Below, in pieces: positions 1,004 through 15,449 of a DNA stretch of 64,000 bases (position 1 is its first letter; each line of letters begins with the position of its first letter). The position numbers were made by a program, and so were the translations under genes. The DNA comes from an uncultured Granulosicoccaceae bacterium. GTDB lineage: Bacteria; Pseudomonadota; Gammaproteobacteria; Granulosicoccales; Granulosicoccaceae. The notes beneath the pieces were generated by a model. That model saw only the letters and a program-made list of their open reading frames with translations, was not told the DNA's origin and did no database searches. The stretch spans positions 1-64,000 of the forward strand of contig CALLMF010000005.1 of NCBI GenBank assembly GCA_938006335.1. The letters run 5' to 3'.

Positions 1004-2371
1004 ATGCGTGGACATCTGAGCTTTGAGCAACTCCGTGCTGCTGTTGACGATGGCAGCGTTGATACGGTGGCCGCCGTGCTGGTGGACATGCAGGGCCGTC
1101 TCATGGGCAAGCGTTTTCACGCGCGCCACTTCGTGGACTCGGCCTACGAGGAAACGCACTGCTGCAACTACCTGCTCGCTACCGATCTGGAGATGGCGAC
1201 CCCGGACGGTTACGCGTCGTCGAGCTGGGGGCAGGGGTATGGGGACTACATCATGAAGCCGGACCTCAACGCCATCCGGCTCACGCCCTGGGCCAATGGT
1301 GCTGCGATCGTGTTGTGTGACGTGCTGGATCATCACAGTCATGAGCCGGTACCTCACTCGCCACGGCAGATGTTGCAACGCCAGCTCAAGCGACTTGAGG
1401 AGCGTGGTTACCAATGTGCTGCAGCGACCGAGCTCGAGTTCTTTCTGTTCGATGAAAGCTATGTCGAAGCGCGCTCCAAGGCCTATGGCGGCATGACGCC
1501 AGCGAGTCCCTACAACGAGGACTATCACCTGTTTCAGACCGCCAGCGAAGAGCCAGTCATGCGCGCGATACGCAATGAGCTGTTTGCTGCGGGTATCCCG
1601 GTAGAGAACACCAAGGGCGAGGCCGAGGCAGGGCAGGCCGAGCTCAATATCCGTTATGCGGAGATGTCGGTCACCGCGGACATGCACGCCATCGCCAAAC
1701 ACGCGGTGAAGGAGATCGCGATGCGCGAAGGGCGTAGCGTGACCTTTCTGGCCAAGACCGGAGCGAATATCGTCGGCTCTTCCAGCCATGTGCACCTGTC
1801 GCTGCGCGACCAGAACAACACGCCGGTGTTCTTTGACGCCGAGGCGCCGCATGGCATGTCCACGCTGATGCAGCATGCGCTGGCCGGACAACTGGCTCAC
1901 GTGGCTGATATCACGTGTCTGCTTGCGCCATACGTCAATTCCTACAAGCGCTTTGCCCCCGGCACCTTCGCGCCAACGCGCGCCGTCTGGTCGCTGGACA
2001 ACCGCACGGCAGGTTTTCGTATCTGCGGTGCGGATACCGCCGCGGTACGTATCGAGTGTCGCATCGGTGGGGCCGATCTCAATCCCTATCTTGCGTTTTC
2101 AGGTCTTGTAGCAGCATCCATAGCCGGTATGGATGCGGGCCTCGAACCTCCGCCGATGTTCACCGGTGATGCCTACGCGGCCGACGCCGCTTCCAGCATT
2201 CCACGCAACCTCCGAGAAGCCGCCGATTACCTGCACAACTCCAGCATGTTGCGTGAGGCCTTCGGTGATGACGTGGTCGATCACTACGTGCGATGTGCGC
2301 AGGTCGAACAGGAAGACTTTGACCGAGCAGTTACCGACTATGAAATTCGTCGTGGATTCGAGCGCGCCTGA
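1004..2371 (+). CDS. Glutamine-synthetase-family gamma-glutamylamide ligase
   Basis: This 455-residue protein has the glutamine synthetase fold: an N-terminal beta-grasp part (residues 1-100) and a catalytic part with the metal-binding ELEFFLF (E143), the SSHVHLSL segment, and NSYKRF (N312) with its following arginines. In this family a carboxylate of glutamate is activated with ATP and joined to ammonia or an amine. The sequence resembles the PuuA/GlnA3/GlnA4 branch more than housekeeping GlnA, which lies in a different context and carries an adenylylation loop. The next genes encode an aldehyde dehydrogenase and an iron alcohol dehydrogenase, which suggests that the substrate is an amino alcohol such as ethanolamine, oxidised after gamma-glutamylation. 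The substrate assignment is inference; polyamines or isopropylamine-type amines are possible. Confidence 0.85.
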   Translation: MRGHLSFEQLRAAVDDGSVDTVAAVLVDMQGRLMGKRFHARHFVDSAYEETHCCNYLLATDLEMATPDGYASSSWGQGYGDYIMKPDLNAIRLTPWANGAAIVLCDVLDHHSHEPVPHSPRQMLQRQLKRLEERGYQCAAATELEFFLFDESYVEARSKAYGGMTPASPYNEDYHLFQTASEEPVMRAIRNELFAAGIPVENTKGEAEAGQAELNIRYAEMSVTADMHAIAKHAVKEIAMREGRSVTFLAKTGANIVGSSSHVHLSLRDQNNTPVFFDAEAPHGMSTLMQHALAGQLAHVADITCLLAPYVNSYKRFAPGTFAPTRAVWSLDNRTAGFRICGADTAAVRIECRIGGADLNPYLAFSGLVAASIAGMDAGLEPPPMFTGDAYAADAASSIPRNLREAADYLHNSSMLREAFGDDVVDHYVRCAQVEQEDFDRAVTDYEIRRGFERA

Positions 2372-2415
2372 TCTGGCCATCGTGGTCGATTGATCCCACT
2401 GGCAAGAGCCTTTGA

Positions 2416-3813
2416 ATGACTACTCTCACTTGCATCTCCCCTATCGATGGCAACGTGTTCGCCAGTCGCGAGAGCCTGTCGCTGGACGCAGCGAGAGCAC
2501 GCCTTGCATCAGCGCGAGAGGCGCAACAGGCATGGCAGCGCGAGTCGGTGTCACATCGCCGTATGCGGGTGCTGAAGGCCATCGACCGATTGGGAGAGAT
2601 CAATGATGAGCTGGTGCCAGAGCTTGCGTGGCAGATGGGGCGGCCGGTGCGCTACGGCGGTGAGTTTGGCGGCGTCAGGGAACGTAGCGACGCGATGGCT
2701 CGACTGGCCGACGAGGGGCTTGCACCTCTGGTGGTGGAATCATCGGCCGAGTTCGAGCGGCGCATAGAGCGCGAGCCTCAGGGTGTGGTGCTCGTGGTCG
2801 CCCCCTGGAATTACCCTTACATGACAGCGATCAACACGATTGTCCCTGCGTTGATAGCGGGCAATAGCGTCGTGCTGAAGCATGCGACGCAAACCCTCTT
2901 GGTCGGCGAACGCTTGCAACAGGTGTTCGATGAGGCGGGTGTGCCGAGAGGCGTCTTCAGCAACCTGTTTCTGGATCATGAGGTCACCGCAGCGCTGATT
3001 GCCGATCGCAGTTTCGGCTTCGTGAACTTCACAGGTTCAGTCAATGGCGGACGAGCGGTCGAGCGCGCTGCACTGGGTACCTTCACTTCCCTGGGGCTCG
3101 AGCTCGGCGGCAAGGACCCGGCTTACGTCGCTGAGGATGCCGACCTCGACGCAGCGGTAGACACCTTGATAGATGGCGCCATGTTCAACTCCGGGCAGTG
3201 CTGCTGTGGGATAGAGCGCATCTATGTGCACCGTTCTCTGTATACGAGTTTCGTCGACAAGGCGGTGGCGATCATCGAAGGGTATGTGCTTGGCAATCCA
3301 CTCGATCAGGCGACTACCCTCGGCCCCATGGCGCATGCGCGCTTTGCCGCGACAGTGCGGGAACACACTGCCGATGCCTTGGCAAACGGTGCTGCCGGTC
3401 TGATCGATGCTGCACGTTTCGATGACGATGGAGGCGCCTACCTCGCACCTCAGCTACTCGTTGATGTATCCCACGACATGCGCGTGATGCGAGAGGAGAG
3501 TTTTGGTCCTGTCGTGGGCATCATGCCGGTAGACAGCGATGACGAGGCGGTACGTCTGATGAACGACAGTGAGTTCGGTCTGACCGCCTCGCTGTGGACG
3601 GTGGATGCCGAACGCGCAGCACGGATCGGGCGCGACATGCAGACCGGGACGGTGTTCATGAACCGCTGCGACTACCTTGATCCGGAGTTGTGTTGGACCG
3701 GTTGCAAGGACACGGGTCGCGGCACGGGTTTGTCAGTGCTCGGGTATCAATCGGTTACCCGAGCAAAGTCCTATCACCTCAAGAAGCCTACTGCTCCTGC
3801 TGCAGGGCATTGA
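2416..3813 (+). CDS. NAD(P)-dependent aldehyde dehydrogenase
   Basis: The 465-residue protein is a full-length aldehyde dehydrogenase. The nucleotide-binding APWNYPY lies near residue 130, the general base is E229 in LELGG, and the catalytic cysteine is C263 in GQCCCG. It starts 44 bases after the ligase gene on the same strand, so an operon is likely. In the proposed pathway it would oxidise a gamma-glutamylated aldehyde to the acid, for example to gamma-glutamylglycine when the amine was ethanolamine. Its last 26 bases overlap the end of the convergent DUF2059 gene. Enzyme class is certain; the natural substrate is inferred only from neighbours. Confidence 0.93.
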   Translation: MTTLTCISPIDGNVFASRESLSLDAARARLASAREAQQAWQRESVSHRRMRVLKAIDRLGEINDELVPELAWQMGRPVRYGGEFGGVRERSDAMARLADEGLAPLVVESSAEFERRIEREPQGVVLVVAPWNYPYMTAINTIVPALIAGNSVVLKHATQTLLVGERLQQVFDEAGVPRGVFSNLFLDHEVTAALIADRSFGFVNFTGSVNGGRAVERAALGTFTSLGLELGGKDPAYVAEDADLDAAVDTLIDGAMFNSGQCCCGIERIYVHRSLYTSFVDKAVAIIEGYVLGNPLDQATTLGPMAHARFAATVREHTADALANGAAGLIDAARFDDDGGAYLAPQLLVDVSHDMRVMREESFGPVVGIMPVDSDDEAVRLMNDSEFGLTASLWTVDAERAARIGRDMQTGTVFMNRCDYLDPELCWTGCKDTGRGTGLSVLGYQSVTRAKSYHLKKPTAPAAGH

Positions 3814-4300
3814 CCTCGGACTGCACGAACTCGAGCAGCTCCGGCATGGCTTCGCTCATGCGCTGCTGGACCAGCGTGGAGGTGCGCGCCATCAGATCGG
3901 GGCTGGCATCCAGGAAGCGTTGCCCCAATGGTGACTCCATGAATTCAGTCAGCGCGACCATGTCCTCTTCGGTGTAGGTGTCCGCGTACAAGGTCACGTA
4001 CTCCGGCTTCAGTGCGGCATAGCCGATGCGCTCATCGATGAAGCCCATGGTTTTTTCCATCAATGCCTGCAAGTCTTCCGGCGGTGGCGCGTTCGGGCCG
4101 GTAGGCAGCAAGCCTGCGAGCATCTGCGGCATCTGCGCGTACATCTGATTCATCATGGCTTCTACCCGCGTGGCCTCCAGCAGGGCCTCGGCGGCTGCCA
4201 GCTTGTCGTCTTGTGACCATGCGGTTGCCGGCACCGACAATGCGGCGGACATCAGTGTGGCGGCAAGGAGCTTACCGGCCGCAATTACGGGCTGTACCAT
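3788..4300 (-). CDS. DUF2059-like exported protein
   Basis: The 170-residue product begins with a clear Sec signal (MVQPVIAAGKLLAATLMSAA, cleavage near residue 28 after an alanine-rich stretch). The mature part is helical and acidic, with the segment YTEEDMVALTEFMESPLGQR that is typical of DUF2059 proteins. It should be periplasmic; no enzymatic motif is visible and the family has no established role. It lies antisense between the aldehyde and alcohol dehydrogenase genes, overlapping the end of the former by 26 bases and diverging from the latter across about 79 bases. Confidence 0.8.
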   Translation of the reverse strand: MVQPVIAAGKLLAATLMSAALSVPATAWSQDDKLAAAEALLEATRVEAMMNQMYAQMPQMLAGLLPTGPNAPPPEDLQALMEKTMGFIDERIGYAALKPEYVTLYADTYTEEDMVALTEFMESPLGQRFLDASPDLMARTSTLVQQRMSEAMPELLEFVQSEVNALQQEQ

Positions 4301-4379
4301 GAGCGTTCCCTGTAGTCGTGGTTTTTTGTGGGCTACCAGACTAACGCCATCCGTTCTTGACAGCCACCTGATTCAACCC

Positions 4380-5537
4380 ATGACGCTCAACGGCAACTGG
4401 AACTACCCGACCCCCATCCGCTTCGGCGCAGGAAGAATCCGTGAACTTGCCGAGGCTTGCCAGGCCTTGGGCATGCAGCGCCCGCTGCTGGTAACCGACA
4501 AGGGGCTGGCTGGCCTGCCGATCACGGTCTCTGCGGTGGATGCCCTGGTGAGCGCGGGCCTTGCGGATTCGGCACCCGCTGCGGTGTTTGCCGACGTCGA
4601 TCCGAACCCGACTGGTGACAATCTTGATGCTGGACTACGCCACTATCGCGACGGAGGGCACGACGGTGTGGTCGCCTTCGGGGGTGGATCCGGGCTCGAT
4701 CTGGGCAAGGCCATCGCGTTCATGGCGCGACAGACCCGACCGGTGTGGGACTTCGAGGATGTGGGCGATTGGTGGACACGTGCAGATTCCGATGGAATCG
4801 ACCCGATCGTCGCCGTACCAACCACTGCGGGTACCGGCAGCGAAGTGGGGCGAGCCGCGGTGCTCACCAATACCGATACTGCCGAGAAGAAGATCATCTT
4901 CCACCCGAAGATGCTTCCAGGCATCGTCATTGCGGATCCCGAGCTCACCGTGGGCATGCCTGCGGCGATAACCGCTGGCACCGGTATGGATGCCTTCGCG
5001 CATTGTCTCGAAGCCTACTGCTCTCCTCACTATCACCCGATGAGTCAGGGCATTGCGCTCGAGGGTCTGCGCTTGGTCAACGAATACCTACCGCGAGCGT
5101 TTGAACGCGCAGATGACCTCGAAGCGCGCGCCCACATGATGAGTGCGGCAGCCATGGGAGCGACGGCGTTTCAAAAAGGGCTTGGAGCAATTCACGCGCT
5201 GTCACACCCTATCGGTGCTGTGCACCATACCCACCATGGCACGACCAACGCGGTGGTCATGCAGCAGGTGCTGGACTTCAACCGGGACGAGATTGTAAAA
5301 AGCATGGCTGCCGCCTCACGGTACCTCGGTATCGGTAAGGACTTCGATGCGTTTCGTGCGCGCGTTGGAGAACTCAACCGCTTGCTCGGCATTCCTGCAA
5401 GCCTCGGCGCACTCGGTGTCATCGATCCCGACCTCGATGCGCTGACACGATCAGCGCTCGCGGACCCGAGCGTGGGCGGCAATCCAGTAGAGATGACCGC
5501 AGAAAACACCCGGCAGTTGCTGGAGCGCTGTCTCTGA
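4380..5537 (+). CDS. Iron-containing (group III) alcohol dehydrogenase
   Basis: The 385-residue product has the family's NAD-binding GGGSGLDLGK (G101 onward) and PTTAGTGSE motifs. The four expected iron ligands can be placed as D204 and H208 (GMDAFAH), H272 (HALSHP) and H286 (HHTHHG), with the same 14-residue spacing between the last two as in FucO. The ATG at 4380 is chosen because the family N-terminus (NWNYPTPIRFGAG) begins there; an upstream extension in frame looks non-coding. It is on the same strand as the ligase and aldehyde dehydrogenase genes but separated from them by the antisense DUF2059 gene. It would oxidise the hydroxyl group of a gamma-glutamylated amino alcohol. Confidence 0.93.
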   Translation: MTLNGNWNYPTPIRFGAGRIRELAEACQALGMQRPLLVTDKGLAGLPITVSAVDALVSAGLADSAPAAVFADVDPNPTGDNLDAGLRHYRDGGHDGVVAFGGGSGLDLGKAIAFMARQTRPVWDFEDVGDWWTRADSDGIDPIVAVPTTAGTGSEVGRAAVLTNTDTAEKKIIFHPKMLPGIVIADPELTVGMPAAITAGTGMDAFAHCLEAYCSPHYHPMSQGIALEGLRLVNEYLPRAFERADDLEARAHMMSAAAMGATAFQKGLGAIHALSHPIGAVHHTHHGTTNAVVMQQVLDFNRDEIVKSMAAASRYLGIGKDFDAFRARVGELNRLLGIPASLGALGVIDPDLDALTRSALADPSVGGNPVEMTAENTRQLLERCL

Positions 5538-8632: not shown

Positions 8633-9724
8633 CTAGCGGCCTCGTGCCACCTGTCGCAGCGGTGCCAGATCGAGGTAGCGATTGGCAGACGGTACGCCGC
8701 GGGCTCTGAGTTGGCCGCGGCGCTCGAGCACCACACTCATCGCAGAGAAGGCCTTCTGATAGGTGCCGCGTAGCAATTCGATATTGCCCTCGGTGTCGAA
8801 CAGCCGGGTGGCGTCAAGGCCAATCGTCGTTATTACCGGTGTGGTCGCGAGCGCGTCTGCGATGGCGGTGGCAGCCTGCTGAGGCTCGCGGATGAGTGCA
8901 CGGACTACGCGATCCCACGCGCGAATGACGCGCTTGACCGTCTCCTTGTTGGCCCGCAGCCAGCGCTCTTCACCGATCAGCAGATCAGCTACCAGGCCGG
9001 CTTCTCGGGAGGGGTCCGCCAGACGGATGAGACTGCCACTGGAGGCTGCCGCAGCTTGCTCGATGCGGCTCAATGCAGGCTCTCCGGCGACCAACGCGTC
9101 GATGTCACCAGCAGTGATGGCCGCTAGCGCGTCCGCTTCGCTGAGATAGCTGATATCGACTCGCGCCATACTGAGCCCTCGTTCCTGGAGAGCATGTGCG
9201 AGTAGCACATCGTTTGCACTCGACGAGTCATCAGCCACGATGGCGATCGATGCTCCACGCAGCGCCACTACATCGCGGATTCCGGGTCTTGCAAGAATCG
9301 CATTGGCCTCCAGCGAGTAGGCCAGCACGAGCACGCCGCGCAAGTCCAGGGCGGCGGACGCGTCTTGCAACAGCACCTCGGCACCCGCTGCCAGCAGATC
9401 GATGTTGCCGTCAGCGACTTGCGCGATCGTCTCGTTATCGTAGGGCAGCAGCTCGACGGCGATTTGCTCCTGCTCGAAGTCCCCGCGTTCTGCGGCCCAA
9501 TGCAACAAGGCCAACGCGACGCGATCCTGCACGGCGATGCGCACGGGAGTGTGTTCCTGAGCCTGCGCCGGATGTAGCGTGGCGAGTAACAGGATGGAGA
9601 GAGCCAGCGTCGCGAGCCCCGACGCTGTGAACGGGGAAGCCCCGCGCCGGGATACCGCGCGTCGGCATTTTTTGCGCCCATGCCGGTCAACCGGCGCGGG
9701 AAGGTTTACAGATGTGTCAGGCAT
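8633..9724 (-). CDS. Periplasmic substrate-binding protein, NMT1/TauA-like
   Basis: The product (363 residues from the ATG at 9724) has an arginine-rich leader and a hydrophobic signal segment (ASGLATLALSILLLATLHPA), then a periplasmic binding fold: PVRIAVQDRVALALLHWAAERG, a DIDLLAAGAEVLL-like hinge, and a VVALRGASIAIVADDSS lobe. This matches the NMT1/THI5/SsuA class, which binds small molecules such as taurine, sulfonates or pyrimidine precursors for an ABC importer. No importer permease or ATPase of that type is adjacent, so it is an orphan here; the ABC genes 1 kb away are of the exporter (ABC-2) type. The start is uncertain: ATGs at 9739 and 9766 are also in frame. Confidence 0.8.
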   Translation of the reverse strand: MPDTSVNLPAPVDRHGRKKCRRAVSRRGASPFTASGLATLALSILLLATLHPAQAQEHTPVRIAVQDRVALALLHWAAERGDFEQEQIAVELLPYDNETIAQVADGNIDLLAAGAEVLLQDASAALDLRGVLVLAYSLEANAILARPGIRDVVALRGASIAIVADDSSSANDVLLAHALQERGLSMARVDISYLSEADALAAITAGDIDALVAGEPALSRIEQAAAASSGSLIRLADPSREAGLVADLLIGEERWLRANKETVKRVIRAWDRVVRALIREPQQAATAIADALATTPVITTIGLDATRLFDTEGNIELLRGTYQKAFSAMSVVLERRGQLRARGVPSANRYLDLAPLRQVARGR

Positions 9725-9768
9725 ACCCTCATGTACCATGCCGCAGCTGCTTTCGGACGTGTTCATGT

Positions 9769-10659
9769 ATGGCTGTCAACCCAGATGACAAGAATCTCGC
9801 GCTGTACTGCGATTTTGAAAACATCGCGCTCGGCGTGCGCGACGCCAAGTACCAGAAGTTCAATATCGAACACGTCCTCGAACGCTTGCTCGTCAAGGGC
9901 AGTATCGTGGTCAAGAAAGCCTACTGCGATTGGCAGCGCTACAAGGATTTCAAGGCGCCGATGCACGAGGCATCATTCGAGCTGATCGACATTCCACACG
10001 TACGACAGTCTGGCAAGAATTCGGCGGACATTCGCATGGTGGTCGACGCGCTCGATCTTTGTTACACGAAATCACACGTCGACACCTTTGTGATAATCAG
10101 TGGAGACTCCGACTTTTCGCCCCTGGTCAGCAAGCTGCGGGAAAACGCCAAGACCGTCATCGGCGTTGGTGTCAAGAATTCCACCTCGGACCTGTTGATC
10201 AAGAACTGCGACGAATTCATCTACTACGACGATCTGGTCCGTGAGCTGGAAAAGAAGCCGTCCCGAAAAAGTGGCAAGAAGCGCTCGGGCTCCAAGCGCG
10301 CGAAGCGCTCTGCACCAAACCCCGTCGAAGAGTCAACCGAGTCTTCGGCGGCGAAAACACCAGTTGAGTCCGCAATCGGTTCGGTCGACTTCGACGATAG
10401 CTCCGATGCTGACGAGCTCGCTCAGGAGGGTATGGAGCTGGTGGTCGAGACTGCGCGAGCGCTGGCTGCCGAGCGCGACAAGGTGTGGGGCTCGATGATC
10501 AAGCAGACACTCAAACGTCGTCGCCCGGGCTTCAACGAGAGCTATTACGGGTTCGACTCGTTCGGTGCCTTGCTGGAGGAGGCTGCGAGCCAGGGCTTGC
10601 TGAAGATCGACTCGGATGACCGTTCGGGTGGCTATATCGTGCGTGAGGTCGCCGATTGA
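9769..10659 (+). CDS. NYN-domain nuclease with C-terminal LOTUS-like domain
   Basis: This 296-residue protein begins with a NYN/LabA-like PIN-fold domain (residues 8-165). Its conserved acidic residues are visible: D15 (YCDFEN), D87 (NSADIRM), and D113 and D115 (SGDSDFSPL); in this fold they bind the metal used for RNA cleavage. A lysine/serine-rich linker follows (about 170-205), then an acidic stretch and a C-terminal domain (about 225-296, WGSMIKQTLKRRRPGFNESY and GLLKID) that resembles the OST-HTH/LOTUS RNA-binding fold often paired with NYN. The ATG at 9769 is chosen because conservation starts at once. Its stop overlaps the TTG start of the ABC ATPase gene, which implies translational coupling. 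Confidence 0.85.
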   Translation: MAVNPDDKNLALYCDFENIALGVRDAKYQKFNIEHVLERLLVKGSIVVKKAYCDWQRYKDFKAPMHEASFELIDIPHVRQSGKNSADIRMVVDALDLCYTKSHVDTFVIISGDSDFSPLVSKLRENAKTVIGVGVKNSTSDLLIKNCDEFIYYDDLVRELEKKPSRKSGKKRSGSKRAKRSAPNPVEESTESSAAKTPVESAIGSVDFDDSSDADELAQEGMELVVETARALAAERDKVWGSMIKQTLKRRRPGFNESYYGFDSFGALLEEAASQGLLKIDSDDRSGGYIVREVAD

Positions 10660-11588
10660 GCCCGGTCATCGACTTTGACGAGGTTGCCAAACGATTTGGC
10701 CGCTTGCCAGTATTGAACGGCTTGTGTCTGCAGGTGCAGGCGGGTGAGGTGTTCGGCTTTCTCGGCCGCAACGGCGCGGGCAAGTCCACCGCCATACGGT
10801 GTCTGATGGGCATCACGACGGCCGATTCCGGTGAAGTACGCTTGTTTGGCGAAACCGTGTCTCCACGAGCGGTTGCCCTGCGGCGACGGGTGGGCTACGT
10901 CGCTCAGGAGCAGCACATGTACCCGTGGATGTCGCCGCGCACGCTGGGGCGGTTTGTGCGCGGTTTCTACCCTACCTGGAATGAGGCACGCTGGCGCGAG
11001 CTGATCACGCGGTTCGATCTGCCGATCAAGCGGCGACTGGGCACCTTCTCCGGCGGCATGAAAGCGAAACTTGCGTTGGCGGTTGCCTTGTCGACGCGTC
11101 CGGAGCTGTTGGTACTGGATGAGCCTACGGCAGGAATGGACCCCGTCGCGCGGCGTGAGTTTCTGGATCTGGTGCGCGGTGAAACCGAGCGCGAGGGAGT
11201 GACCACGTTTTTTTCAACGCATCTCATCGATGAGATCGAGGCAGTGGCGGATCGTATTGCCATCGTCGAAGGGGGGCGTTCGATCTACGAAGGTGCTCTT
11301 GCGCCGCTTGCGTCGCGTACGGTGGGCTACTCCATTGCGGTCGAAGATGACGTGCCTGGCTCGTTGCCTGGCCCCTTTGCCGCCGAACGACTTCGCCTGC
11401 TGGACGAAGGGGTACGTGGTGGTCGACGGCATCTTGTGATGATGCTGGCCGAGGAAGAAATGCCGGGCCCGACGGGCGCAAGCTACAGCCCGGTGCTCAA
11501 TCCCGGCTGGCGTCCCGAACGCTTGTCGCTTGAAGACGTGTTTGTCGCGCTGGTCAGTCGTCATATCGGAGCTTCGGACGCTCGCTGA
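10656..11588 (+). CDS. ABC transporter ATP-binding protein (ABC-2/exporter type)
   Basis: The 310-residue protein is a canonical ABC ATPase with Walker A at residues 37-45 (GRNGAGKST), a signature FSGGM at 131-135, and Walker B ending in LDEP (D155, E156). The last 90 residues form an extra domain after a typical ABC-2 ATPase. The start is TTG at 10656, inside the last codons of the NYN gene (TTGA overlap). The next gene begins one base after the stop, so ATPase and permeases are one transcript. The similarity is to CcmA/NodI/YtrB-like drug or lipid exporters; the cargo cannot be told. Confidence 0.92.
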   Translation: MSPVIDFDEVAKRFGRLPVLNGLCLQVQAGEVFGFLGRNGAGKSTAIRCLMGITTADSGEVRLFGETVSPRAVALRRRVGYVAQEQHMYPWMSPRTLGRFVRGFYPTWNEARWRELITRFDLPIKRRLGTFSGGMKAKLALAVALSTRPELLVLDEPTAGMDPVARREFLDLVRGETEREGVTTFFSTHLIDEIEAVADRIAIVEGGRSIYEGALAPLASRTVGYSIAVEDDVPGSLPGPFAAERLRLLDEGVRGGRRHLVMMLAEEEMPGPTGASYSPVLNPGWRPERLSLEDVFVALVSRHIGASDAR

Positions 11589-11589
11589 C

Positions 11590-13512
11590 ATGGCAACCAG
11601 GGCACTGTTGGGCAAGGACCTTCGAGAGCACGGCTTGGCGGCTCTGGGTCTGCTGCTCGGTGGTTTTGCACTGGTCGCGCTTGCCATCGCGCAGAATCGC
11701 GCGGCTGCGTTTTCAATGAGCCCCTTCGAGGTGGTGCGATTTGCGCTGATCACCTTCGTGCCCTTGATTGTGCTGACCGTTGGCAATCGTCTGGTCGTGC
11801 GTGAGTACCTGTCAGGGACCCGACAGTTCGTGGAGGCCTTGCCGGTCGGCACGTCCCTGCCACTCACCATCAAGTATCTGTTGGGTGCCGGCTTCCTGAT
11901 ACTGCTCGGTGTGTTGTTGATCGCCTTGTGCACGCTTGGCTCCAGCGCGGCAGATGATGTCACGGCACCCTGGTTGGCCTTGTTGCTGGCAAAGACGGTC
12001 GTGATACTGCTGCTTTATTGGAGCATCGTTTTCTGCTTCAGCTTGTGTGGCCATCTGCGCATCATGCTGTACCTGAGCGTGCTGGGTATCGCCGCCCTGA
12101 TTGCCTGGTCGCCGGGCATCGACTCATCGAGATTTGCTCCCTTCAATCTCATGGATCGTGATCTGTTCGTGTTCGAGCGGGATGTGGTGCCGGTCGCTGA
12201 CATGTTGTGGACGCTGGTCATTGCCGCTGCCTTTACGGCCGGTGGCTTCCTGATTGCCCGGCTCGGCAATGGCGCGGTGGTCGAGCGACTCGCCAAGCCG
12301 ATGAGCCGGCGCGACTTCGTCGTACTCGGTGTATTGGCGGCAGCTGGTCTGACCCTGGGTGGGCTCATCGCAGAGGATCAGTCGCGGGATCCCATTCGCT
12401 TTGGCACCAATACGGTGTTGCGAAACATCGACCCTGCCATAGAGATGTACTACGCCGCGGAAGCCTATCGCGGCCGCAGCGAGGCTTTCATGTTGCTGGT
12501 CAAGGAGGCTGAGGCTCCGTTGCAAACGGTGTTGGGCATCGAGTCATTGCCGGTCGTGCGACTGGCCTTGCGTCCGGGGCGCGAGCCGCACGATATCGAC
12601 TACGGTACGCTCGATGGCGTGTATGTCGCGGCCAACTGGATGGAGCACGATAGCTACGACGACGCGGTGCTGGTGGCGGTCGTGTTGCACGGCTTGCTCA
12701 GTGCGCGCACCGGTGGTCGTGCACCCTTTGAGCCGCATCACTGGGTGCTGGACGGCTTTACTCGATGGTGGGCAGAGACGCTTGGAGATCCGGCGCGGCT
12801 GCGCAACTCGCATCGAGATGAGCTGCTTGCGCGTGCGGCCTTCGTGGCCGCACGACTCGATGAAGATGCTGATCTGGTCAGCACCTGGCAGCTTGTCGCA
12901 GATCGCTTTGGGTATCCCTCGGCCGAAGCGCTTGCGTTCTCGGCGATGCATTATCTGTCCGAGTCGGCTGGTAGCAATGCGGTGCTTGCCGTCGGGCGCG
13001 CGTTCCTGTCGGAACCCGTCGGCGCATCGATACTTGCCAGTGCCGCGGACCGGCGACGGCCCTCCTGGCAACGATTCACTGATGCGACGGGTATCAGTCG
13101 CGATGACTTCCTGCGCGGCTGGGCACAGTCGCTTGCCAACGCGACACGTGAGCCTGGCGTGGCGAGCAAGCTTGCCGCGGTACCGCCCATCGAGGCGGTG
13201 ATTGATGTCGCTGACGATGCCGTGCCTACCATCATCGCGGGCTACCGGGCGACTCACGGCAGCACAAGCTTGTCCGACGCTTACGCGGATACCCGCTGCA
13301 TTCTGCGTCATGGTCCCTTGTCTGCGTTTGATTACGAGTTCGATGTCGACGACGAAGACGAACTCGAGGCGCCTTGTGCCCTGGACGAGCAGGCGCATAC
13401 GCTTCGTGGCCGGTACGCATCAGGTGACCGGGTATACGTCGCGCTTGAAATGGAAAGTCCGGCGTTTCACCAGCCCTTGAGGCTGGACTCGCGTCGTTTG
13501 AACATTCCCTGA
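11590..13512 (+). CDS. ABC-2-like permease fused to a degenerate peptidase-like domain
   Basis: The 640-residue protein starts at the ATG at 11590. The first 260 residues hold about six or seven hydrophobic helices arranged as in ABC-2 permeases. From about residue 275 a large soluble region follows, with the layout of a gluzincin (peptidase MA-like) domain, but the zinc site is lost: where the sister protein has HETVH this one reads AVVLH (residues 363-367), and the third ligand position is D388 (LDGFTRW). The fusion and length match the next gene, so the two are ancient paralogues that probably form a heterodimeric membrane unit with the ATPase. Whether this half keeps a binding role is unknown. 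Confidence 0.75.
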   Translation: MATRALLGKDLREHGLAALGLLLGGFALVALAIAQNRAAAFSMSPFEVVRFALITFVPLIVLTVGNRLVVREYLSGTRQFVEALPVGTSLPLTIKYLLGAGFLILLGVLLIALCTLGSSAADDVTAPWLALLLAKTVVILLLYWSIVFCFSLCGHLRIMLYLSVLGIAALIAWSPGIDSSRFAPFNLMDRDLFVFERDVVPVADMLWTLVIAAAFTAGGFLIARLGNGAVVERLAKPMSRRDFVVLGVLAAAGLTLGGLIAEDQSRDPIRFGTNTVLRNIDPAIEMYYAAEAYRGRSEAFMLLVKEAEAPLQTVLGIESLPVVRLALRPGREPHDIDYGTLDGVYVAANWMEHDSYDDAVLVAVVLHGLLSARTGGRAPFEPHHWVLDGFTRWWAETLGDPARLRNSHRDELLARAAFVAARLDEDADLVSTWQLVADRFGYPSAEALAFSAMHYLSESAGSNAVLAVGRAFLSEPVGASILASAADRRRPSWQRFTDATGISRDDFLRGWAQSLANATREPGVASKLAAVPPIEAVIDVADDAVPTIIAGYRATHGSTSLSDAYADTRCILRHGPLSAFDYEFDVDDEDELEAPCALDEQAHTLRGRYASGDRVYVALEMESPAFHQPLRLDSRRLNIP

Positions 13513-13523
13513 AGGCGCTCCTG

Positions 13524-15449
13524 ATGATCTCATTGATCTGGAAGGAACTACGCCAGCTATTGCCGATCGCCTGGCTGTGGTTCGCCATCATCCTGATTGG
13601 ATACGCATCACGGTTCATCGGAAAACGTATCGATGAGGAAACCTTTGGCTCCTGGTTCGAAAACCTGCTCGCCGTAGGCAGTGACCCGATGATTGCAGCA
13701 GTGGCTGCTGTGGTGGGTCTGGTGACGGCATGGGCGTTGTTTCCGCGCGAGGTCGATGACTCCACGATTGATTTCCTGCGCGCCTTGCCGGTGTCGCGAG
13801 TATCGGTGTTCGTCGCCAAGTACATCGCGGCGGTTGTGTTGATCGCCATACTCACGGTGCTGTCTTATGGCATTGATGCCGTGGTGCTTGCCTGGAATCC
13901 CGAGTCGATCGGCGGGCGTTTCTATGGCCAGGCTTTCGCCACGATGCTATGGCGCGACATCGTGTTCTCCGCCATCATCGTCGCGCACGGGGTACTGATC
14001 TCATGGTTTCGGGTGCTTGGCCTGGTGGTGTACGCCTTGTATTTGCTGGGTGTTGCCTGGTTGGAGAGTCAGGCGGGCGGGGCGGGTGTCTTCAGTGTGC
14101 TCAGCATCCTGTCCAATGAATTTGATGGGTCGCGGCTGGTGGTCGACTTGCGTGCAATCGTCATTCACGTACTGGTTGCGTTCTTCGTGCTGCTCATCGC
14201 CTACTTCCTGTGGAGTCGGACGCCATCGATGCGTGCCGGCGGAAAGCGTCGTTCGGTCAGCGCAAAGATCGCGCGAGGGCTCATGTCACTTGCCGCCTTC
14301 GTGGCGGTGGGTCTCGCTCTGTTGCAGATCACGGCCACCGAGAACGGCGGTCTCATCGATGACTCCCTGGAGGTGGCTACCACCGCTCACTACCGCTTTG
14401 CCTTCCATCCGTCAGATACGCCTACCGTCGAGTACGTGCTCGGCCATGCCGATGATGACTTCCAACGTCTCGCGGATTTGCTGGGCACCGATGAGCTACC
14501 GCGCGTGCGCGTCAACCTTGCCGCGGCGAGCGAACATGCGGCTGGGCTTGCGACCTGGAAGACCATTCGCATGGACCTCGATACTTTCGAGGCTGATGTG
14601 TCACAGCGTCGCGTGCTCAGTCACGAGACCGTGCATGTCATGCAATCGGTGTTGTCGAATCGCGCCTTGGCAAGACATTATGCTGCCACACGGTTCTTCG
14701 TCGAGGGCATGGCCCAGTACCTATCGTTCATCGTGGTGCCGGAAGTCGAGCGACGCGCCTCCAATCGCGCGATTGCGGCGGTCGCCTGGAAGCGTCAGGA
14801 CATCCGCTTCGAAGACCTGAGCGACGCCGAGTTTGCGTCCCGTTTTGATCCAGACTTGTATTACAGTCTGGGCGACTTGTGGACAGAGAGTTTCGTGTCG
14901 GTGTGTGGAGAAGCAGCCATCGGTGATTTTCTTCGTGCCGCTGGCAGAGACGATGTGCCGCGCAACCTTGTGGGGCCTGTGTTCTGGAGGGATACGCTCG
15001 GCACGATCGGTTGCGAGCTTGAGGAAGTCAACGAACGTTTTCGTACCGACATGCTCGCCTTGTATGAGTCGACCGACCGCTCCCGCTTTCCCCGCTTTGA
15101 CGGCGTTGAGGTCACGAGGCTCGATGACGGACGTGTGCAAGTGGTCAGTGAACTCATGGGCCCAGAAGATGGTGCGGGTGATACCTTGCCACTCGACGTC
15201 AACCAGCTGCCGGCGCGATTCACCATTCGCGTAGGGGGTCTGGCAAGTCTTGTCGCTACCGTGGATCCGGTGTTTAGAGGCCGAGTCGAGCGGGAAGGCG
15301 ATGATGTGCGCGTGGTGTACGAACTCCCTGCTCGGGCCGTGCCGCGTACGCGTTTCGAATACCAGCTTGGGTTTGCGCCCTACGCCGACTCGCGGGTCTG
15401 GTACGACACCCGCAGAACCGGAAGTGCATCTCGACCGGCAAGCGAGTAG
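13524..15449 (+). CDS. ABC-2-like permease fused to a gluzincin metallopeptidase domain
   Basis: The 641-residue protein has a hydrophobic N-terminal half (residues 10-260) with about six or seven membrane segments, including the ABC-2-like signature PREVDDSTIDFLRALPVSR. From about residue 270 a soluble domain follows with an intact zinc-protease motif HETVH (H367, E368, H371) and a plausible third ligand, E394, in FVEGMAQY, 23 residues later as in gluzincins. A beta-rich region closes the protein. The topology suggests that the peptidase faces the periplasm. It is the last gene of the NYN-ATPase-permease operon (11-base gap to the previous gene). Proteolytic activity is predicted, not shown. 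Confidence 0.8.
   Translation: MISLIWKELRQLLPIAWLWFAIILIGYASRFIGKRIDEETFGSWFENLLAVGSDPMIAAVAAVVGLVTAWALFPREVDDSTIDFLRALPVSRVSVFVAKYIAAVVLIAILTVLSYGIDAVVLAWNPESIGGRFYGQAFATMLWRDIVFSAIIVAHGVLISWFRVLGLVVYALYLLGVAWLESQAGGAGVFSVLSILSNEFDGSRLVVDLRAIVIHVLVAFFVLLIAYFLWSRTPSMRAGGKRRSVSAKIARGLMSLAAFVAVGLALLQITATENGGLIDDSLEVATTAHYRFAFHPSDTPTVEYVLGHADDDFQRLADLLGTDELPRVRVNLAAASEHAAGLATWKTIRMDLDTFEADVSQRRVLSHETVHVMQSVLSNRALARHYAATRFFVEGMAQYLSFIVVPEVERRASNRAIAAVAWKRQDIRFEDLSDAEFASRFDPDLYYSLGDLWTESFVSVCGEAAIGDFLRAAGRDDVPRNLVGPVFWRDTLGTIGCELEEVNERFRTDMLALYESTDRSRFPRFDGVEVTRLDDGRVQVVSELMGPEDGAGDTLPLDVNQLPARFTIRVGGLASLVATVDPVFRGRVEREGDDVRVVYELPARAVPRTRFEYQLGFAPYADSRVWYDTRRTGSASRPASE

Follow-up and report, generated by a model that had tools for sequence, protein, structure and literature searches.

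The question raised by this locus is whether four tightly packed genes of an uncultured Granulosicoccaceae bacterium, encoding a NYN nuclease, an ABC ATPase and two proteins (P1 and P2) that each join a permease half to a peptidase-like domain, constitute one system, and what the genes that do belong together may accomplish. The window, that is, the whole stretch of 64,000 nucleotides analysed here, is located on contig C5 of a draft genome of 3.8 Mb.

Gene arrangement and conservation of the ABC-P1-P2 unit

All four reading frames are open at the coordinates given in Table 1. As the preliminary description had stated, they are joined by overlaps or by gaps of at most 11 bases: the NYN and ABC genes share a TTGA overlap, the TTG start of the latter lying within the stop of the former, followed by a 1-bp gap between ABC and P1 and an 11-bp gap between P1 and P2. 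A GAGG-like ribosome site is found about 7 nt upstream of the TTG start, inside the end of the NYN gene, and cotranscription across this first junction may well be real in the source species.

Table 1. Positions of the genes discussed, in the window unless a locus of a relative is named
Feature	Position	Strand	Description
c12-c7-c5 block	1004-5537		glutamine synthetase-like, aldehyde dehydrogenase and iron-dependent alcohol dehydrogenase genes
SsuA/NMT1-like gene	8633-9769	-	substrate-binding protein
NYN gene	9769..10659	+	NYN (LK-nuclease/DUF88) RNase with C-terminal OST-HTH-like domain; outside the conserved unit
ABC ATPase gene	10656..11588	+	exporter ATPase; TTG start overlapping NYN stop
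P1 gene	11590..13512	+	ABC-2 permease half with degenerate gluzincin-like (pseudopeptidase) domain
P2 gene	13524..15449	+	ABC-2 permease half with gluzincin-like metallopeptidase domain, intact HExxH-x22-E
G047 fusion gene	L221:3023-7531	-	1200-aa ABC-2-like/Peptidase_M1 fusion
DUF6151 gene of G023	L041:10867-11484	+	between NYN and the trio, on the opposite strand
c20 gene	L060:11090-11749	-	
c20 gene	L063:5449-6069	+	Pfam Rhomboid match
c20 gene	L064:4692-5387	-	

The search for P2 covered 57 relatives, the 48 genomes of the whole order and a class sample of 274 genomes. More widely, a profile-derived pattern scan of 84,980 species with one genome per species, which detects only relatives with near-identical catalytic stretches, gave 31 loci, and a scan of genome contigs with the single sequence gave no match. 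Of the Granulosicoccaceae genomes sampled, 32/48, or about two thirds, carry P2, and the one MAG outside them to do so (L126) bears no label more precise than gammaproteobacterium. Class-wide profile matches outside the family were set aside, as they are confined to about 50-125 residues within the ABC-2 half; the two long ORFs checked, in G043 and G188, encode ABC-2 permeases that end in another kind of C-terminal region, GldG-like as judged by eye. A search of plasmids for the family returned partial ABC-2 matches only.

Regarding the neighbourhoods, 31 extended loci of relatives were read besides the window, and the ABC ATPase and P1 genes stand immediately 5' of P2 in every locus with enough contig (29/29). 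P1 and P2 usually overlap by 4 bp across the Granulosicoccaceae loci, and the gammaproteobacterial MAG carries the complete trio with both junctions overlapping. Since relatives with as little as about 31% protein identity still show this order, the arrangement goes beyond chance. The best explanation is that the functional unit is a three-gene operon, ABC-P1-P2, and that the four genes are not one conserved system. No substrate gene and no accessory gene (outer-membrane or adaptor) is conserved beside the trio, which counts against reading it as an exporter.

Other neighbours were also observed. The SsuA/NMT1-like gene and the NYN gene stand head to head, the first ATG of the former being 2 bp away from the start codon of the latter, and the arrangement in the sister species G017 (L035) is similar; permease or ATPase genes of the SsuA/NMT1 type were not seen directly adjoining the former gene in the window. 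The c12-c7-c5 block is directly upstream of ABC-P1-P2 in several relatives and is parted from it in the window by NadE and other genes, and members of the DUF6151 cluster adjoin the trio in three loci lacking NYN (L039, L046 and L047). Among the trio genomes, those of the most divergent clade (G002, G021 and G025) have a gene of the c20 family directly upstream of the trio; its copy in L063 matches Pfam Rhomboid (1e-16) and is a second, lineage-specific protease neighbour.

Membrane halves and peptidase-like domains of P1 and P2

The ATPase matches ABC_tran (E=4e-29), and its best NCBIfam match, below the model cut-off, is the ATPase of PmtA-type phenol-soluble-modulin (PSM) exporters. The membrane half of P2 matches ABC2_membrane_4 (E=1e-7); the corresponding match of P1 is sub-threshold in the window protein, with 16 of its 29 relatives matching the same model and with a predicted membrane-half fold that matches NosY and PmtCD in Foldseek. 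Both features of an ABC-2 exporter, the ABC ATPase and the ABC-2 membrane domain, are thus found here, for P1 through its relatives and its fold, and the likeness to the NosDFY and PmtABCD exporters extends from this fold to the sub-cut-off PmtA match of the ATPase. NosY and the Pmt permeases are not known to be fused to a peptidase domain, whereas both permeases of the trio bear a peptidase-like domain behind the seventh helix.

P1 and P2 are paralogues over their full length, as seen by profile-profile comparison (hhalign, E 6e-18), each having seven hydrophobic segments. In both, the strongest positive charge is found in the loop before segment 7, which, following the positive-inside rule, should leave the C-terminal half of each protein in the periplasm; judged from these sequence features, the C-terminal domains are probably periplasmic.

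AlphaFold models built from 32 (P2) and 29 (P1) relatives were of fair to good quality, reaching a mean pLDDT of 82 and 84, respectively, with a pTM of about 0.6. The predicted C-terminal folds of both match M1/M61 gluzincins in Foldseek, the best matches of P2 being M1 aminopeptidases (E 6e-5), with TM-scores that are low (0.2-0.3) because the two-domain models were searched whole. In P2, His367, Glu368, His371 and Glu394 are invariant in 32/32 sequences, forming HExxH-x22-EG with a fixed 22-residue spacer and Gly395 after Glu394. Tyr447, equally invariant across these 32 sequences, whose identity goes as low as 31%, is a candidate for the catalytic tyrosine. P2 therefore presents the broad gluzincin features of clan MA(E), namely HExxH with a downstream Glu and the M1/M61 fold matches, while P1 keeps the fold matches and has lost the motif: HExxH is absent from its active site in all relatives (0/29), the one HExxH of L058 being incidental and away from that site. 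Nevertheless, His367, Glu381, His384, Trp385, Asp388 and Gly389 of P1 are invariant in the 29 relatives, and residue conservation without HExxH is, on the alignments, the pattern of a conserved pseudoenzyme. The earlier view of two permease-peptidase fusions holds, then, in that both folds match M1/M61, but P1 lacks the active-site motif and only P2 looks catalytic.

Despite sharing the predicted fold and, in P2, HExxH followed by a conserved EG with the M1/M61 metallopeptidases, these domains differ from them by their anchoring in an ABC-2 permease. Membership of M1 was rejected for both proteins due to the motif spacing (x22 instead of x18 in P2, with no motif at the active site of P1), the missing GxMEN exopeptidase motif (0/32 P2 and 0/29 P1 sequences) and the lack of a Peptidase_M1 (PF01433) match in any aligned P1 or P2 sequence. 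A sequence-profile search of the PDB with P2 gave no match, and no Pfam or NCBIfam peptidase model scored above its cut-off for P2, the latter counting against the exporter-peptidase reading.

The main rival to that reading is a machine that transports nothing, in which ATP-driven motion of the ABC-2 core would turn the periplasmic peptidase on or off, much as FtsEX controls periplasmic hydrolases. Such mechanotransmission would suit the lack of a linked substrate gene and the extracytoplasmic domain borne by both permeases, active in one and degenerate in the other, like a regulated enzyme and its regulator. However, it is ABC-2 exporters (NosY and PmtCD) that the membrane halves match, and not the type VII permeases of FtsX/MacB, and this explanation appears unlikely, although it deserves to be kept in mind. 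Less probable still is a loss of proteolysis from the peptidase-like domains, whose sole role would then be binding or chaperoning in the periplasm. The absence of the catalytic motif from P1 and the failure of any peptidase family model to pass for P2 would agree with such a loss, but, were there no metal catalysis, the invariance of His367, Glu368, His371, Glu394 and Tyr447 of P2 would be difficult to account for.

The NYN nuclease and its relation to the trio

The NYN protein of the window matches Pfam NYN with E=8e-36, and its OST-HTH/LOTUS tail falls below the cut-off there (E=0.012) and is matched in 16 of 21 orthologues at E<=0.1 (best 6e-6), so that the first description as a NYN nuclease with a LOTUS-like tail is refined, the tail drawing its support from the orthologues. 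Asp15, Asp87, Asp113 and Asp115 are invariant in the 21 orthologues, and the nearest solved structure is 2qip (VPA0982; profile match 4e-14). PADLOC returned only weak matches for the nuclease and none for P1 or P2. Bacterial LK-nuclease/OST-HTH proteins were described in 2010 as stand-alone RNases without conserved neighbourhoods or conserved links to other RNA-processing systems (PMC2848206). The protein studied here shares with this group the apparent domain order, the invariant acidic residues, the closest structure, the wide but scattered bacterial distribution and the lack of conserved neighbours, differing only by the start/stop overlap with the ABC operon in two species. It is a stand-alone NYN/OST-HTH (LK-nuclease) RNase, independent of the trio.

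The neighbourhoods point in the same direction. NYN is near the trio in seven of the 32 P2 loci and not nearby in the other 25. It overlaps the ABC gene in two, the window and G017, with TTGA in both; it lies 139-171 bp upstream in G018, G024 and G011, and 810-850 bp upstream in G023 and G013. A close orthologue anywhere in the genome was found in eight P2-bearing genomes and was not found in the remaining trio genomes, some of which are incomplete drafts. Incomplete MAGs are frequent among these genomes, which makes any single absence of NYN soft and leaves the total pattern firm. In G006, the gene is on a separate contig beside c5 and c7, genes that are upstream of the trio in other genomes, and about 37 further gammaproteobacteria of the class sample without P2 carry close orthologues, with nuclease domains roughly 60-84% identical. 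No neighbours are shared beyond closely related pairs among the 16 NYN regions read. On the P2 tree, NYN proximity is limited to one 14-member clade, with three label changes sufficing to explain it, and the overlap with ABC is limited to one pair (support 100/100).

The preliminary description had offered an exporting unit with RNA-level control as one reading, with chance adjacency of the nuclease gene as another, and had proposed a neighbourhood search for co-occurrence of the NYN gene. That search finds the fusions and the ATPase widely without NYN, the very outcome that the description had named as refuting a common unit, and membership of the nuclease in the unit is not supported. Adjacency without a functional link is the better reading, refined here from chance to synteny inherited within one clade of the genus, which we prefer to a four-gene unit. 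A single functional system NYN-ABC-P1-P2, where the RNase would control the exporter or substrate mRNA through translational coupling, could draw on the overlap in two species with the ribosome site inside the NYN end and on the same-strand position within 850 bp in five more relatives of one clade, but was rejected as very improbable on the neighbourhood evidence: the trio loci without NYN nearby, its location elsewhere in G006, its presence without any P2 match in G064 and in the other sampled gammaproteobacteria, and the opposite-strand DUF6151 gene interposed in G023. A local functional tie between NYN and ABC in the window and G017 is still conceivable. A start/stop overlap, however striking in a single genome, can thus be an accident of lineage, the link dissolving once relatives are compared.

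Proposed mechanism and related systems

Taken as a whole, the observations are best explained by ABC-P1-P2 being an ABC-2 exporter whose membrane heterodimer pairs a peptidase with a pseudopeptidase and by NYN being an independent RNase, a reading that we hold to be fairly probable. The idea of an exporter with an attached protease is thereby supported, and refined to a peptidase with a degenerate paralogue, both probably periplasmic; the best reading is that the exporter is restricted to a lineage.

Gene order, conservation, the state of the catalytic motif, the paralogy, the predicted folds and the decoupling of NYN are what the analysis shows directly. From these features, we infer zinc binding, topology, P1/P2 pairing, the direction of transport and a peptide substrate, as follows. 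Two copies of the ATPase and a P1/P2 membrane heterodimer would form an ABC-2 (type V fold) exporter, in which one more transmembrane helix, the seventh, behind the six of the ABC-2 part would put the gluzincin-like domain of both permeases in the periplasm. The P2 domain would be an intact zinc metallopeptidase, and that of P1 a conserved non-catalytic partner, probably binding or positioning the substrate or activating P2. A peptide or small protein would most likely be driven across the inner membrane, with P2 trimming or degrading the emerging chain. The peptide substrate is the weakest link of this scheme, being deduced only from the presence of a peptidase and from the distant likeness of the ATPase to PSM exporters. 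Meanwhile, the NYN/OST-HTH RNase gene would have come to abut the operon in one lineage via inherited synteny, and in the two sister species it would now share with the operon, besides the start/stop overlap, probably a transcript.

Peptidase-carrying ABC exporters of the C39 type (PCATs) are already known. No C39 match was found in the trio proteins, and the N-terminal C39 cysteine peptidase of the PCATs is replaced here by a C-terminal metallopeptidase-like domain. A single-chain analogue is the fusion encoded in G047, where an ABC ATPase gene is likewise directly upstream of an ABC-2-like/gluzincin fusion. However, G047 has one long protein with a recognisable M1 domain (Pfam 3e-14), in contrast to the two short paralogues of the trio, one of them degenerate, with a peptidase domain missed by the Pfam M1 models. 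The long M1 ORFs of G148 and G092 are M1-M28-PDZ proteins and not transporters. No description of ABC-2/M1 fusions or of ABC-P1-P2 was found in the literature, which was covered in part. The trio is set apart from the known peptidase-bearing ABC exporters by its pair of short paralogues, of which one is degenerate, and by a peptidase domain that the Pfam and NCBIfam peptidase models miss at their cut-offs.

It is possible, and we put it forward tentatively, that ABC-P1-P2 represents an undescribed class of heterodimeric ABC-2 machine, with an active metallopeptidase on the periplasmic side of one membrane half and its pseudoenzyme twin on the other; a physical coupling of transport to proteolysis, perhaps gated by ATP, would follow. 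If the exporter reading is right, the trio would be a compact natural design, an ABC exporter carrying its own periplasmic protease in one catalytic and one degenerate copy, and would offer a testable model for the coupling of transport with proteolysis.
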